The notes under the pieces were generated by a model. It saw only the letters and a list, made by a program, of their open reading frames with translations, was not told the DNA's origin and did not search any database. From contig JANQOQ010000006.1 in the NCBI GenBank assembly GCA_028285755.1, positions 620,001-684,000 on the forward strand: a stretch of DNA of 64,000 nt, read 5' to 3'. A program made the translations under genes and the position numbers. The stretch's first letter is position 1. Each line of letters begins with the position of its first letter. The stretch is from Puniceicoccaceae bacterium (GTDB lineage: Bacteria > Verrucomicrobiota > Verrucomicrobiia > Opitutales > JAFGAQ01). Below are positions 21,121 through 28,173 of this stretch, one piece after another.

Positions 21121-21591
21121 CTAATTATCGCTGAGTGTCCTCAACAGAGTCTGGTATTTGCGAATTTCCTGCAAAGCACTCTGGAGCTGGGTGTTGAGCT
21201 CCTCATTCTCGAGCTCATACTGATTTGCGCGGTTGGTCTCCTCGAGCAATTCATTTTCGAGCTCGGCCATGGATGAACGCAGCTCCTTGATCTGCTCGTT
21301 GAGCGTTTCCGTATCACTGAGTGCAGCATTCATGCGCTCTTCAGCCTTCACGATGTTTTCCTCAAGAAACGCTTCCTTCGAGCGGCTATCCTGCAGCTCA
21401 TTTTCCATACTGATGATTTTTTCCTCAAGATCAGAGATCTTATTACGATCCATCAGGACTTCTTGCTCCAATTGCTGCTTCCGTTGCTCCAGCTCGTGAT
21501 TATTGCCGCCCATACCGCCACCCAGATAGATATAGGCCCAGGGCGAAACCGCTAGAAGCAGAATAAAAAGTCCGAAAAATACTTTAAGCAT
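21121..21591 (-). CDS. Membrane-anchored coiled-coil protein downstream of ftsZ
   Basis: 156 residues: one N-terminal membrane helix (FFGLFILLLAVSPWAYIYLG), a Gly-rich linker, then about 120 residues of uninterrupted heptad-like coiled coil (ISDLEEKIISMENEL, LEENIVKAEERMNAAL, ELENELLEETNRANQ). No enzyme motif. Topology resembles FtsL, FtsB or ZipA-like anchors, but no family is recognised. It sits 38 bases after the ftsZ-like gene, so a role in division or envelope structure is inferred from position. Confidence 0.6.
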   Translation of the reverse strand: MLKVFFGLFILLLAVSPWAYIYLGGGMGGNNHELEQRKQQLEQEVLMDRNKISDLEEKIISMENELQDSRSKEAFLEENIVKAEERMNAALSDTETLNEQIKELRSSMAELENELLEETNRANQYELENEELNTQLQSALQEIRKYQTLLRTLSDN

Positions 21592-21629: not shown

Positions 21630-22829
21630 CTAGGTTTTGATGCGCAGTCCACGCCTCAAATACGTGGGAACATCCATATCTTCTCCATCGATCAAATTAA
21701 GATCCGTATCTTCAAAATAACCCCGGTTTGACTCACTCATGATGATATCAAAAAGCCCCTGATCATCCTTGATCTTGGCTCGGGAAGTCCGCCTTTTCTT
21801 GGGCTTGGTTTTTCTACTTGCTTTCCTGGCGACGGTTTTAACCGGAGCTTCATTACTCTTTTCTTCGGAGATTGCTCCCAATTCAAATTGATCGCCCAAG
21901 CCAATGCACGCATACACGATAAGCTTAAGGCCAGACATACGCGAATCAATGCATGCACCAAAGTGGCTCTTATCGGGATTTCCAAATCGCTCTGAGATCT
22001 TTTCGTTGATCTGATTTACATCTGAGAGGGATAGATTATCATCCCCGAGGACAGTGATCATCAGACGATCTATCGTCAGCTCCCGATCCGGCAGTTTAGC
22101 ATCCGCCTGCTCAACCAAAGCATTCACCACATCTTCAACCGCTTCTTCTGGTTTAGCTGTTTTACATAGTAAAATGGACTTATCAATGCCTAGGTTGAAT
22201 GTGTTTTTGAGGATTTCGATATTAAATGCAAAGAGCCCTTCCCTCAAAATAAGCTGCAAGAGCGTATCGATCGCGTGAGTCATATCGGCAACGCATAAAT
22301 CAATGGCCTCTGTAGCTGGTGTAGTTTCCGGGATGCGCTCCAGGTAATCATCCAATTCAAGAGTAGCCGCTGCCAGACTGAATTCACGCAATCTGCCCAG
22401 GCATAGTTTCGCAGCATCCATTGTTTTACGACCTTCGAACGCAAAGGGCATTACAGGGTATGCAATTAGGGACACCCCATCATGTTTTGCCATTTGGGCG
22501 AGCTCAGTCATAAAACCTCCGGCAAATCCACCTGCGCAACTTCCCGTTACGATCACAAGCTCTTTGTTACTTAGCCAGGATTTGACGCGCTCCTGCTCAA
22601 TAAGAAAGATAGATTTACCGATCTCTTGCTGACTTCGGCAACTCAGGCCATGGGTAATCTGAAATCCTATCAACTCTGCTTTTTCTAATTCGGGGGCACA
22701 ATCCCAGCAACTGAATTCAGCATCAAGCTGACTGGATGCTGCGATCTGATTCACGATTGCCGAGCCCAGTCTCCCCAATCCGAGGACACCAATTTTGTTT
22801 TCAGATACAGGCTGTAGTGTAACTGCCAT
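21630..22829 (-). CDS. ftsZ: Highly divergent FtsZ-like protein with a degenerate GTPase signature
   Basis: 399 residues, directly after ftsA as is normal for ftsZ. The fold can be followed: IGVLGLGRLGSAIVNQI replaces the first Gly-rich loop, PFAFEGRKTMDAA matches the strand after the signature (FxFEGRxR), and the tail DVPTYLRRGLRI matches the FtsZ C-terminal peptide that binds FtsA. The tubulin signature GGGTGTG is replaced at 96-106 by GSCAGGFAGGF, and the T7 NxDFAD motif by N203-I-E205-I-L-K208. A basic linker (KASRKTKPKKRRTSRAK) precedes the C-terminal peptide. GTP hydrolysis is therefore doubtful. Gene name rests on position, the tail and overall resemblance. Confidence 0.7.
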   Translation of the reverse strand: MAVTLQPVSENKIGVLGLGRLGSAIVNQIAASSQLDAEFSCWDCAPELEKAELIGFQITHGLSCRSQQEIGKSIFLIEQERVKSWLSNKELVIVTGSCAGGFAGGFMTELAQMAKHDGVSLIAYPVMPFAFEGRKTMDAAKLCLGRLREFSLAAATLELDDYLERIPETTPATEAIDLCVADMTHAIDTLLQLILREGLFAFNIEILKNTFNLGIDKSILLCKTAKPEEAVEDVVNALVEQADAKLPDRELTIDRLMITVLGDDNLSLSDVNQINEKISERFGNPDKSHFGACIDSRMSGLKLIVYACIGLGDQFELGAISEEKSNEAPVKTVARKASRKTKPKKRRTSRAKIKDDQGLFDIIMSESNRGYFEDTDLNLIDGEDMDVPTYLRRGLRIKT

Positions 22830-24139: not shown

Positions 24140-25042
24140 TCATTCTTCACTGGCTTTGCGAATAATTACATCCTGATTGATCGAAAAGTCTATTTCCTGG
24201 GTCAAATCCAGTTCACGATCCCCCGAGATTGTGAGTAACTCACGAAAACGCTCAATTTGATCACTGAGCCCCTGAGTTGCAAATATCACCTTCTTATAAG
24301 TATCCCCCCGTGTGATTATAATCGAACCAAGCTCAGGCTCCCCGAAGTAAAACTGCTCAAGTGAAATGGTGCGTATATCCTGAAAGTAGTGATAGAGATT
24401 GAGTTTTGCGTTCGAGAGCAGCTCATAAACCGAAGTCACCCCCACAATCTCAGTTACCCCATCCTCAATCGCATCAAGCGCGATACCATCCAGGAATGGC
24501 AAACGCATTTCAGCGACAAAATTTTCCTGAATCGGCTTAAAAACAACGCCCTCGGCATCAACCCCCCAGAATATGATATCAGAGCCCGCTTCCTGAGTTG
24601 CCAGAGCCAATATTGGCTGCCGTTCATAAAGCTGTATCCGCAGCTCATCCGGAAATTCTTTCGTGATTTCAGCACGCTTTACATGCCCCCGGGCTTCTAG
24701 CATTTGCTGCATATCAACGGCGTTCACAGCCATCAATGTTGTTTGTGCATTATAGTCCACCCATGTGTACACCTCGTCCGGGGAGGAACTGCCGTTGGTA
24801 TCTACCCGAATAAAGAATTCAGGTCCCAGCGGTTTGGTTTCAAGGTTTGCCTGCTCGTTGTAATATCCCCGAATCCATCGGTTATAATAAAAGCCTCCTA
24901 CACTGATCAATGTGAGCACCAAAAAAATCGGCAATAGCACCCGCCTGAACAAGCGCCCCCAGGTCTGAGTGTTTGAGATACCGGCACTCATATTTTGCTT
25001 TTTGGCGGACCAATCGGAGGGCCTGGGCGTTTCTTTTTTCAC
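24140..25042 (-). CDS. ftsQ: Cell division protein FtsQ/DivIB
   Basis: 300 residues: a cytoplasmic tail of about 30, one membrane helix (VLLPIFLVLTLISVGGFYY), and a periplasmic part with a POTRA-like region (VNAVDMQQMLEARGHVKRAEITKEFPDEL) followed by the FtsQ beta domain (ERQPILALA, LPFLDG). FtsQ bridges FtsL/FtsB and other divisome proteins. It begins 1 base after ddl ends. Position ddl-ftsQ-ftsA matches other dcw clusters. No ftsB is seen in the window. Confidence 0.88.
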   Translation of the reverse strand: MKKETPRPSDWSAKKQNMSAGISNTQTWGRLFRRVLLPIFLVLTLISVGGFYYNRWIRGYYNEQANLETKPLGPEFFIRVDTNGSSSPDEVYTWVDYNAQTTLMAVNAVDMQQMLEARGHVKRAEITKEFPDELRIQLYERQPILALATQEAGSDIIFWGVDAEGVVFKPIQENFVAEMRLPFLDGIALDAIEDGVTEIVGVTSVYELLSNAKLNLYHYFQDIRTISLEQFYFGEPELGSIIITRGDTYKKVIFATQGLSDQIERFRELLTISGDRELDLTQEIDFSINQDVIIRKASEE

Positions 25043-25043
25043 A

Positions 25044-25988
25044 TTATCCTTTTGTAGCTCTATATCGCTCCAGGCAAGGTTTAACCATGGCTAATATTAA
25101 CTGTTCGAAATCATAACCAAAGGCAGCCGCACTCTTCGGCAAAAGACTCGCGGGAGTCATGCCGGGTATCGTATTAATTTCCAGGAAGTAGAGTTGTTTC
25201 TCAGCCTCATCATAAAGGAAATCCACCCGGGCAAAATCCCTACAACCGCAGGCATTGAACACTTTCAATGCCGATTCCCTAATCTCGCCTTCCAATTCCC
25301 GCGTAATGGGTGCAGGGCACAGATATCGGGTGTCATTCCGATGATACTTTTGCTCATAGTCATATACCCCGGAGCCCGGTAGCCGGATTTCGACTACTCC
25401 AAGAGCCTGATCATCCAGTATACCCACGGAGAGTTCCTTTCCATGCACACGTCTTTCAATCAGCCATTCATACTTAAGCGGAGAATTCTCGTTTAACCAG
25501 TACTCCCACTCAACTTTGGATTGGATAAGCGCTAACCCTCTACTGCTGCCCTCGCTAGTGGGTTTAATAATCGTTTCTTGCCCCAATAACTCCTCGATTT
25601 CTTCAAAAACAAATTCATCTTCAGGTCCCAACAATATTTGCGGAATCACAGGTACTCCTGCCTGCGATGCGTACTGCTTTGCAGTTGGTTTATGGATGGT
25701 TATTCGGCTACTTCGCGAATCCGAACCACAATAGTGAATCCCCTTTGCTTCGAGCTCCGACTGTAACTGGCCATCCTCGCCGTAAGCTCCATGAATCATT
25801 GGCAAGACGACCCTACCCTTCGATTCAAGCTCCTTTGGCAATTGATTCTGCTGAAGATCAAAACAGCTGAAATTCTCTCGTATTTCAGTTTTTAGCAAGG
25901 CCTCATAAACCGCCTTACCTGAGAGCCTTGAAATTTCACTCTCATTGCTCTCGCCACCGTAGAGGACAACCAGCTCAGGTTCTTGCAT
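25044..25988 (-). CDS. ddl: D-alanine--D-alanine ligase
   Basis: 314 residues from the ATG at 25988, which lies just after the murC-murB stop and gives a normal N-terminus (VVLYGGESNESEISRLSGKAV); an in-frame ATG at 26060 would create a 71-base overlap and an atypical extension. ATP-grasp motifs are present: MIHGAYGEDGQLQSELEAKG, KPTSEGSSRGLALI, EWLIERRVHGKELSVG, ARVDFLYDE and FLEINTIPGMTPASLLPKSA. It makes the D-Ala-D-Ala dipeptide used by MurF. Confidence 0.94.
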   Translation of the reverse strand: MQEPELVVLYGGESNESEISRLSGKAVYEALLKTEIRENFSCFDLQQNQLPKELESKGRVVLPMIHGAYGEDGQLQSELEAKGIHYCGSDSRSSRITIHKPTAKQYASQAGVPVIPQILLGPEDEFVFEEIEELLGQETIIKPTSEGSSRGLALIQSKVEWEYWLNENSPLKYEWLIERRVHGKELSVGILDDQALGVVEIRLPGSGVYDYEQKYHRNDTRYLCPAPITRELEGEIRESALKVFNACGCRDFARVDFLYDEAEKQLYFLEINTIPGMTPASLLPKSAAAFGYDFEQLILAMVKPCLERYRATKG

Positions 25989-25989
25989 A

Positions 25990-28173
25990 TCAACTACCCA
26001 ATCTGCGGATTTCTGATTCCAGCTTAACACCGAATCGCTCATAGACAACCGCCTGGGCATGGGCCATCACCGCCTCCACATCTGCGGATTTGGCTTTGCC
26101 CGTGTTCACCAAAAAGTTCGCATGTTTGGTTGAAATTTCAGCATCGCCGATACGATATCCCTTCAGTCCCGCCATATCGATTAAACGACCCGCCGAATCA
26201 TTCACTGGATTTTTAAACATGCAGCCTGCACTTGGCTCCCAGGGCTGAGTCGATTTACGATAGTCCACATTGCCTTGCTTCACACTCGATATACTCTCTA
26301 ATCTTTCGGGCATTAAAGCACTTAATACCGCCGAGATTACAATCAGGCCTCTAACGGTGGGGCATGAGCGATAATTCAAGGTGAGCTCGTCACGACTTAG
26401 ACGGATTCGATTCCCCTTCAAGTCCAGGCAATCCAGGCTTTCAATCAATGCCCCGGTTTCCGCTTGCATGGCTCCCGCATTCATCGATACCGCACCTCCG
26501 ATAGCACCCGGAATCCCCTCAAAAAATTCGAATCCCGGCAGCCCCCAGGTTTCTGCCTTTTTGGAAATTTCTTTCAGTAACGCACCCCCTGCTACCCAGA
26601 TCCGCCCCTCTCTCAATAATTTAATGGTTTTCCAATATTTCTGGTTGAGCCGAATGAGAATTCCATCAAACCCGCTATCAGCCACTAGTGTATTAGATCC
26701 CTTGCCCAGTATCGCAACATCGAGTTGAAAACGCTTTGCTGCTTTTAAGATAAACTGTAGATCTTCGAGATTCGCTGGCTCCACATAAAAACGTGCAGAG
26801 CCACCCACATTGAGGGTGGTTTTTTTGCCAAGCTGCTCATCGAGTAAACACTTGGAAGAACTGCCCAGGTTTTCTTTGAGATACTCTATAAGGCGTTGGT
26901 CTTCAGAAAGCACTGTATTCGCTTGTTTATAAAAGTGTAACCATTGATCAATATCACCCGCACCAATAAACGCCAGAACTCGTGGGCTACCGCTGGTTGT
27001 GTTAAGTTCATGGGTAAGTGCATGAGGTTCTTCGCAATAGGATAGCGAATCAGCGCCGACATTCTGTAATTGCTGAAACAGTGCCTTTGAGCTGGCAGCC
27101 GTCTGTTTAGTCTCAAATGCAGCATATTCCGGTATTAGAACGAGATCCAAGTTTTTGAGCACAGCTACAAACTCACTCATCAGACTCGCCGTACGGGTAT
27201 AGCGATGAGGCTGGAAAATCACTTTTAGCGTATGCTCTGGATAGCGATTAGCTAACCATTCGCTCAATGCCTTTAGCTCCGCCGGGTGGTGGGCATAATC
27301 TTCAACGAGTATATCCCCATTATCCATTTTTTTGATAGTCTGACGCCGCTCAATACCTGGAAAATCATTGAAGGAATAGTTACTGAATTGCGGCGCCAAA
27401 ACTTTGATAGCCTCTTTAGCCAGCAACTGATTCTGAATATTAAAATCAGCAGGCATGGAATCGAGTGTTTGTATGCCAAGTCCGGGATTATTTTCTTCAA
27501 ACAAGCCAATCACTGCATATTGCGTTGGCTTAAAGAGAATAGTTGAAGCTTGAGTGCGTTCGACCAATGATCGAAATGTATCCCGCAAATCATCCAAACT
27601 CTGATAGTATCCGGTATGGTCAAGATCGAGATTGGTAATCACGGTGATCCATGGTGAAAATTCATCAATGGTACGATCACTTTCATCCACTTCAATGAGT
27701 AGATATTCAGATTGATTGAACTCAGCAGCAGGCAAAGCATTGTCCTCAAAAAATCCTCCCAATATGTAAGATATAGGTATACCAGCTTCCCTGAGTGCAT
27801 GGATCATTAATCCGGTTGTGGTTGTTTTTCCATGGCTCCCGGCGATAGCAATGGTTTTGTAATCCTGCGAGATACGCGCAAGAAATTCACCACGGTAGAC
27901 GATTTCCACCCCCGGAAAATGCTTTTGGAGATAATCGACAAAACGAGTATTCCCAAGTGCACGGGAGAGCACAATAAGATCCGGTAGTTCGTAATCCAAC
28001 AGGCTTTCCACCCAATCGATGCCAGCATCTTTTAAGCGTGTTTTGATTTTCGGATTTGGGTAATCATCATAGGCGTAAATGGTATGTCCCGCACCCTTTA
28101 CAAAAAGAGCTAGGGGGGCCATACCCATACCGCAGGCACCAATCATCAAAATACTGTCCGCTTTTTGAATCAC
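25990..28173 (-). CDS. murC-murB: MurC-MurB fusion: UDP-MurNAc--L-alanine ligase and UDP-MurNAc reductase
   Basis: 727 residues in one open frame. Residues 1-418 are MurC: nucleotide loop MIGACGMGMAPLALF, ATP loop GSHGKTTTTGLM, VITNLDLDHTGYYQ and FQPHRYTRT. Residues about 440-727 are MurB: LNVGGSARFYVEP, FAD-binding ILGKGSNTLVADSGFDG, GIPGAIGGAVSMNAGA and AGCMFKNP, where the usual proton-donor Ser of AGSFFKNP is Cys. The two enzymes act in successive steps of Lipid II synthesis, MurB before MurC. The start is GTG at 28173 within the GTGA overlap with murG. A sequencing error is unlikely because both halves are intact. Confidence 0.93.
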   Translation of the reverse strand: MIQKADSILMIGACGMGMAPLALFVKGAGHTIYAYDDYPNPKIKTRLKDAGIDWVESLLDYELPDLIVLSRALGNTRFVDYLQKHFPGVEIVYRGEFLARISQDYKTIAIAGSHGKTTTTGLMIHALREAGIPISYILGGFFEDNALPAAEFNQSEYLLIEVDESDRTIDEFSPWITVITNLDLDHTGYYQSLDDLRDTFRSLVERTQASTILFKPTQYAVIGLFEENNPGLGIQTLDSMPADFNIQNQLLAKEAIKVLAPQFSNYSFNDFPGIERRQTIKKMDNGDILVEDYAHHPAELKALSEWLANRYPEHTLKVIFQPHRYTRTASLMSEFVAVLKNLDLVLIPEYAAFETKQTAASSKALFQQLQNVGADSLSYCEEPHALTHELNTTSGSPRVLAFIGAGDIDQWLHFYKQANTVLSEDQRLIEYLKENLGSSSKCLLDEQLGKKTTLNVGGSARFYVEPANLEDLQFILKAAKRFQLDVAILGKGSNTLVADSGFDGILIRLNQKYWKTIKLLREGRIWVAGGALLKEISKKAETWGLPGFEFFEGIPGAIGGAVSMNAGAMQAETGALIESLDCLDLKGNRIRLSRDELTLNYRSCPTVRGLIVISAVLSALMPERLESISSVKQGNVDYRKSTQPWEPSAGCMFKNPVNDSAGRLIDMAGLKGYRIGDAEISTKHANFLVNTGKAKSADVEAVMAHAQAVVYERFGVKLESEIRRLGS

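Follow-up and report, generated by a model that had tools for sequence, protein, structure and literature searches.

Introduction

GTP-driven treadmilling is regarded as central to FtsZ function and as near-universal. The residues of the FtsZ GTP site are described as conserved across species, and in S. aureus FtsZ the substitutions D46A, R143Q, N208L, D210N and D213N each suppress assembly on their own (PMC8936486). Two GTPase-crippled mutants of E. coli FtsZ, D212A and D212G, still build constricting rings and extra septa (PMC4383033). The FtsZ of V. spinosum, which is essential, has been ranked among the most divergent FtsZs on account of its C-terminal extension (PMC12283558). Makarova and Koonin described FtsZl1 and FtsZl2, divergent members of the FtsZ-tubulin superfamily that usually accompany a conventional FtsZ and lie outside the dcw cluster; FtsZl2 retains the nucleotide motifs (PMC2875224). 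A literature search found no paper on an FtsZ without a GTP site in Verrucomicrobiota.

Here we describe the FtsZ encoded in a 64,000-nucleotide stretch of a Puniceicoccaceae bacterium (contig JANQOQ010000006.1), which we call the window. Its descent, position, fold and tail all mark the protein as an FtsZ, yet as read from its sequence it lacks the features by which FtsZ is recognised as a GTPase. Cells of this family may divide by means of an FtsZ filament that is not powered by GTP.

Results

A divergent ftsZ in an ordinary dcw cluster

An earlier note on this DNA had placed an ftsZ-like gene after ftsA in a standard dcw cluster. The ORF and its dcw position bear this description out; the gene lies on the minus strand, and the plus strand there is full of stops.

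21630..22829, minus strand: ftsZ orthologue with a degenerate GTP site, ORF of 399 aa (TIGR00065, 71 bits; Pfam Tubulin, 46 bits), sole FtsZ of the genome
22841..24052, minus strand: ftsA, conventional (Pfam FtsA, 119 bits; SHS2_FTSA, 34 bits)
24140..25042, minus strand: ftsQ (POTRA_1, FtsQ-type, 32 bits)
25044..26060, minus strand: ddl (gene order ddl-ftsQ-ftsA-ftsZ also in family loci L032-L035)
25990..28173, minus strand: murC-murB fusion (ORF translation; syntenic homologue in L032-L035)

The gap from the end of ftsA to the start of ftsZ is 11 bp, and the order ddl-ftsQ-ftsA-ftsZ, with a single ftsZ straight after ftsA, is found in the window and in four further genomes of its family. The note had also taken the rest of the cluster to be ordinary, and FtsA, FtsQ, FtsW and the Mur genes are indeed conventional and the cluster intact. 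A murC-murB fusion has likewise been described in V. spinosum (PMC12283558).

By orthology, this ORF is the genuine ftsZ of the lineage. Its Pfam Tubulin score exceeds the cutoff of 33 bits, its FtsZ_C score is only 14 against a cutoff of 27, and its score with the NCBIfam FtsZ equivalog TIGR00065 lies far below the cutoff of 295. In a sequence search of solved structures, the strong matches are all FtsZs, with a best E of 6e-16.

A single FtsZ in every genome of the family

The window's genome (4.25 Mb in 15 contigs, 97% complete) belongs to a family of five genomes in three genera of the order Opitutales, here coded f1; the named relatives are Opitutales metagenome-assembled genomes. All five carry one FtsZ each, in the same degenerate form, and none reaches the equivalog cutoff, which 13 of 14 control genomes reach. 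Because the same form recurs in four further genomes, chance and assembly error are excluded.

One alternative raised in the earlier note, that a second true FtsZ lies elsewhere, is not supported by these searches. Profiles for PF00091, TIGR00065, Tubulin_2 and a family-specific FtsZ found no second FtsZ in the window's own genome, and Tubulin, Tubulin_2, TIGR00065 and the family-specific profile found none in the other four; no genome of the family has a Tubulin_2 match at E 0.1. A second weak Tubulin match in G004 (locus L036) was set aside, its sequence resembling a P-loop kinase when read by eye.

Changes throughout the GTP site

The note had read the T4 signature GGGTGTG as changed to AGGFAGG, and the window protein has exactly this (A99-GGFAGG-105); PFAFEGRK, which the note listed as retained, is also present. 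For T7, the loss of the motif stands and the proposed register, NxDFAD replaced by N-I-E-I-L-K, does not. When GMINVDFADV of P. aeruginosa FtsZ is aligned with GLFAFNIEIL, it is A-F-N-I-E-I that stands where N-V-D-F-A-D is in P. aeruginosa FtsZ. The loss also extends beyond that first reading, to T1, T2, T5, T6 and the guanine-binding F183 and D187 positions.

22758..22781, minus strand: T1 loop, residues 17-24: GLGRLGSA replaces GVGG(G/A)GNN (G21 to R, N25 to A)
22698..22706, minus strand: T2, residues 42-44: WDC replaces NTD
22629..22652, minus strand: T3, residues 60-67: HGLSCRSQ replaces RGLGAGGD/E; H60, C64 and Q67 family-invariant
22512..22535, minus strand: T4 tubulin signature, residues 99-106: AGGFAGGF replaces GGGTG(T/S)GA; F102 and F106 family-invariant
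22422..22448, minus strand: T5, residues 128-136, PFAFEGRKT; equivalent of E139 retained, equivalent of R143 is T136
22341..22364, minus strand: T6, residues 156-163: TLELDDYL replaces x-LPNDLLL; equivalent of N166 is L159; E158 and D161 family-invariant
22290..22304, minus strand: guanine-recognition segment, residues 176-180, F183 to I176 and D187 to V180
22209..22241, minus strand: T7 catalytic loop, residues 197-207: EGLFAFNIEIL replaces xGLINVDFADV (N208 to A, D210 to N, D213 to I)

The T4 signature is absent family-wide, reading AGGFAGG in the window and GGGFSGG or GGGFASG in the other members. The Thr that becomes Phe here is the residue that contacts the γ-phosphate in FtsZ. Guanine recognition by N25, F183 and D187 is replaced by A, I and V in the window protein, and the T7 NxDxxD motif is absent, with A, N and I at its three positions (A/E, N/D/G and I/T across the family). 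Together with these, D46, R143 and N166 are lost.

We scored 19 residues that are known to bind GTP or take part in catalysis; their selection follows PMC8936486 and what is generally known of FtsZ structure. Three of the 19 are left in the window FtsZ and in G004, five in G002, and seven in G001 and G003. All five positions at which the S. aureus substitutions act are altered in the window FtsZ, D210N itself included. Those mutants showed no assembly, so that an FtsZ altered in this way might be unable to polymerise.

From these residues, GTPase activity has likely been lost in the window FtsZ, and the loss of GTP binding is fairly likely. An unlikely alternative is that the pocket is remodelled, so that GTP or another nucleotide is bound and slowly hydrolysed by other residues. 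GLGxxG in T1, GGFxxGF in T4 and FEG in T5 might hold a nucleotide: T1 retains GxGxxG, T4 retains G100, G101 and G105, T3 is close to GLGCGG in other family members, and the loops are constrained. Some nucleotide could still bind, given that the T1 and T4 glycines and the T5 PFxFEG are partly retained, and graded losses in the phylum (for instance in families f29 and f13, without D210 or D213) suggest that FtsZ can work with an altered T7. However, the guanine-specific contacts N25 and D187 are missing in every family member, N166 is unconserved (L, G, C, L), two of the four family sequences have lost R143, and F102 replaces the γ-phosphate-contacting Thr (PMC8936486). A switch to NAD-type Rossmann binding, as GLGxxG and weak Pfam matches might suggest, was rejected because ordinary FtsZ T1 already carries GxGxxG.

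Rapid change under constraint

The ftsZ frame is intact in all five genomes, across three genera, and family f1 forms one clade in both the FtsA and the FtsZ tree (support 100/100). Two family genomes of the same genus share 78% identity in FtsA and 46% in FtsZ, and the tree path from the window to L033 is 2.83 for FtsZ compared with 0.83 for FtsA. In one closely related species pair, G001 and G003, dN/dS is 0.048. It is thus FtsZ, and not the whole cluster, that evolves fast compared with FtsA, with purifying selection at short range.

The constraint falls on the old nucleotide loops. In a test on only four distinct family sequences, to which glycines contribute, 27 of 68 loop positions are invariant compared with 30 of 236 in the rest of the body (P = 2.5e-6). 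Among 17 family-invariant residues that are rare in the rest of the order, ten fall in loops (P about 0.001): L18, H60, C64, Q67, F102, F106, E158, D161, E197 and F202. F106 is absent from the other aligned FtsZ sequences, and an aromatic residue at 200 is rare. The aromatic gains flank the longitudinal interface on both sides, with F102 and F106 in T4 and F/Y200 and F202 in T7. As far as sequence can tell, the nucleotide loops have been rebuilt under constraint and not simply lost.

The ftsZ of this family is not a pseudogene. Relaxed selection, with a decaying ftsZ that is heading for loss as in the FtsZ-less small-genome Opitutales families, could account for FtsZ changing faster than FtsA and would have a precedent in the several small-genome families that lack an FtsZ match. 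This reading is largely refuted and hardly credible: the frame is intact in five genomes of three genera, dN/dS is low, the loops and the C-terminal peptide hold invariant residues, and the family f1 genomes, at 2.8-4.9 Mb, are not reduced.

Fold, tail and divisome partners

An AlphaFold model of the monomer, built with four sequences, is of moderate quality (mean pLDDT 62; core near 80; T3 and T7 below 50; tail poor). Its top matches in Foldseek and VIA-align are all FtsZ; against P. aeruginosa FtsZ, VIA-align gives Z 23 over 201 residues at 2.7 Å. The tail of the protein is also retained.

21633..21680, minus strand: C-terminal conserved peptide DMDVPTYLRRGLRIKT, the FtsA-binding tail, retained

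The FtsA-binding peptide DMDVPTYLRRGLRI is present in the window FtsZ, and the note was right that the C-terminal peptide DVPTYLRRGLRI has been kept. Invariant residues make up 23 of 44 positions in the C-terminal part (356-399) and 0 of 39 in the linker (317-355).

FtsA is a filament-forming actin homologue. It is conceivable, and to us improbable, that the window FtsZ is a non-polymerising adaptor between FtsA and the septal synthases, with the cytoskeletal role taken over by FtsA or MreB. This would fit the alteration of positions at which single mutations block S. aureus FtsZ assembly, the better conservation of ftsA than of ftsZ, and the presence of MreB in the genome. It does not fit the loops of the longitudinal interface, where conservation within the globular domain is highest, and MreB is found across the order whatever the state of FtsZ, which points to no special compensation. 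MinC and ZapA were undetected in all 27 genomes searched. Compensation by a special MreB, MinC or ZapA was rejected, as none of the three sets family f1 apart.

A candidate partner lies next to ftsZ.

21121..21591, minus strand: 156-aa protein with an N-terminal transmembrane segment (SPW motif) and a long coiled coil, candidate FtsZ partner

This gene begins 38 bases downstream of ftsZ. In each of the four family genomes with contigs that include the flank, a homologue sits at the corresponding position (222-260 bits); the contig of the fifth ends there. Across 47 other Opitutales genomes nothing comparable was found, the best score of 29 bits being coiled-coil background, and no Pfam family matches the protein above its cutoff. 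We hypothesize that it is a partner of the window FtsZ.

A gradient across the phylum

We aligned 125 FtsZs, one per genome and from 53 family codes (loci L002-L142 and the window), to P. aeruginosa FtsZ. The genomes were sampled evenly over the phylum and the order, and sequences were taken first from the high- and low-scoring ends, so that the fractions that follow are approximate. The full T7 triad N208/D210/D213 is present in 8 of the 125 and incomplete in 117, and D213 is present in 37. Thr or Ser replaces D213 in the majority of Opitutales FtsZs that are otherwise normal, and in f29, a large family of the same class, D210 is mostly Gly. The T4 residue T109 is present in 98 of the 125, and most FtsZs of the phylum also retain E139 and N166. 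Family f1 has the lowest mean of retained active-site residues of the 53 families sampled. Because T7 erosion is phylum-wide, family f1 is the extreme of a gradient and not an isolated oddity.

Family f22, which has T109F and A71C in common with f1, was considered as an intermediate and not accepted as a proven one: its grouping with f1 in the FtsA tree is unsupported (44/0), and long branches are a concern in the FtsZ tree.

Other unusual tubulin-family genes and absences came to light in the survey. Six genomes of family f42, of the same phylum, have an altered GTP site with a one-residue deletion in T4 (GGGT-AGA or GGGT-SGA; L083-L088). Six Opitutales genomes of 0.8-1.0 Mb, at least 90% complete, have no FtsZ match (G009, G028, G032, G036, G045 and G046, in families f6, f25, f26, f27 and f28); these are possible independent losses of FtsZ. 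The Opitutales families that lack an FtsZ match have mostly small genomes. In two near-complete genomes of family f16, G038 and G080 (2.3-2.7 Mb), FtsZ is absent or barely detectable, and other members of f16 have a divergent FtsZ. Five genomes of the phylum (G407, G412, G417, G420 and G468) carry a weaker second tubulin-family gene besides the main ftsZ, possibly an FtsZ-like paralogue.

Discussion

T4 and T7 are opposed across the FtsZ longitudinal interface. That both have gained aromatic residues suggests that a protein-protein contact has taken the place of the nucleotide. We therefore hypothesize that F102 and F106 of one subunit contact F/Y200 and F202 of the next, which would replace the GTP-mediated contact.

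The reading we prefer, with a probability of roughly 0.6, is that the window FtsZ is a hydrolysis-deficient and probably GTP-independent scaffold, tethered by FtsA and still serving division. The FtsZ fold would be retained, and filaments would form through the rebuilt longitudinal interface; that they do so without GTP is plausible. FtsA would tether the filaments to the membrane via the conserved C-terminal peptide, and turnover would need a driver that is not GTP hydrolysis, such as ATP-driven FtsA, proteolysis or the neighbouring coiled-coil membrane protein. The earlier note had offered a filament independent of normal GTP turnover as its other alternative, and the sequence evidence favours it. 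A more specific version is tentative and, taken whole, doubtful: the family would divide with an FtsZ that neither binds nor hydrolyses GTP, held by the aromatic contact, turned over via FtsA or the new coiled-coil partner, and standing at the end of a phylum-wide slide.

The rings built by E. coli D212A and D212G support the mechanism, in that a hydrolysis-deficient FtsZ scaffold can work. Division in B. subtilis, in contrast, needs treadmilling, which counts against a GTP-free scaffold (PMC8079713).

A lineage whose sole tubulin homologue lacks the GTP residues tests, as a natural experiment, whether cell division depends on the turnover of GTP. The gradient across the phylum provides graded natural variants, and could show FtsZ being modified before it is lost, as in other PVC bacteria. 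The finding also bears on FtsZ as a drug target, as one would not expect inhibitors of the GTP site to affect these cells.

Canonical FtsZ (TIGR00065; structures 2VAW and 1OFU; S. aureus FtsZ) and the window FtsZ have in common the dcw place after ftsA, the fold, the FtsA/ZipA-binding peptide and the single copy. They differ in that the GTP-binding and catalytic loops of the window protein are lost or replaced, with 71 against 295 bits and 3 of 19 residues. The other FtsZs of Verrucomicrobiota are closer, as T7 is eroded in most and the C-terminal peptide is common to Opitutales; most of them, however, retain T4, E139 and N166, and none of the 53 families has fewer active-site residues. In contrast to FtsZl1, FtsZl2 and Tubulin_2 proteins, the window FtsZ is the only FtsZ of its genome, lies in the dcw cluster and has neither a Tubulin_2 match nor a conventional FtsZ alongside. 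With the laboratory mutants E. coli D212A and D212G and B. subtilis D213A it shares the loss of a T7 aspartate, and hence, in its case most likely, of most hydrolysis. Those mutants are single changes in a GTP pocket that is otherwise kept, whereas the window FtsZ is changed at both its binding and its catalytic sites and is the natural sole copy.
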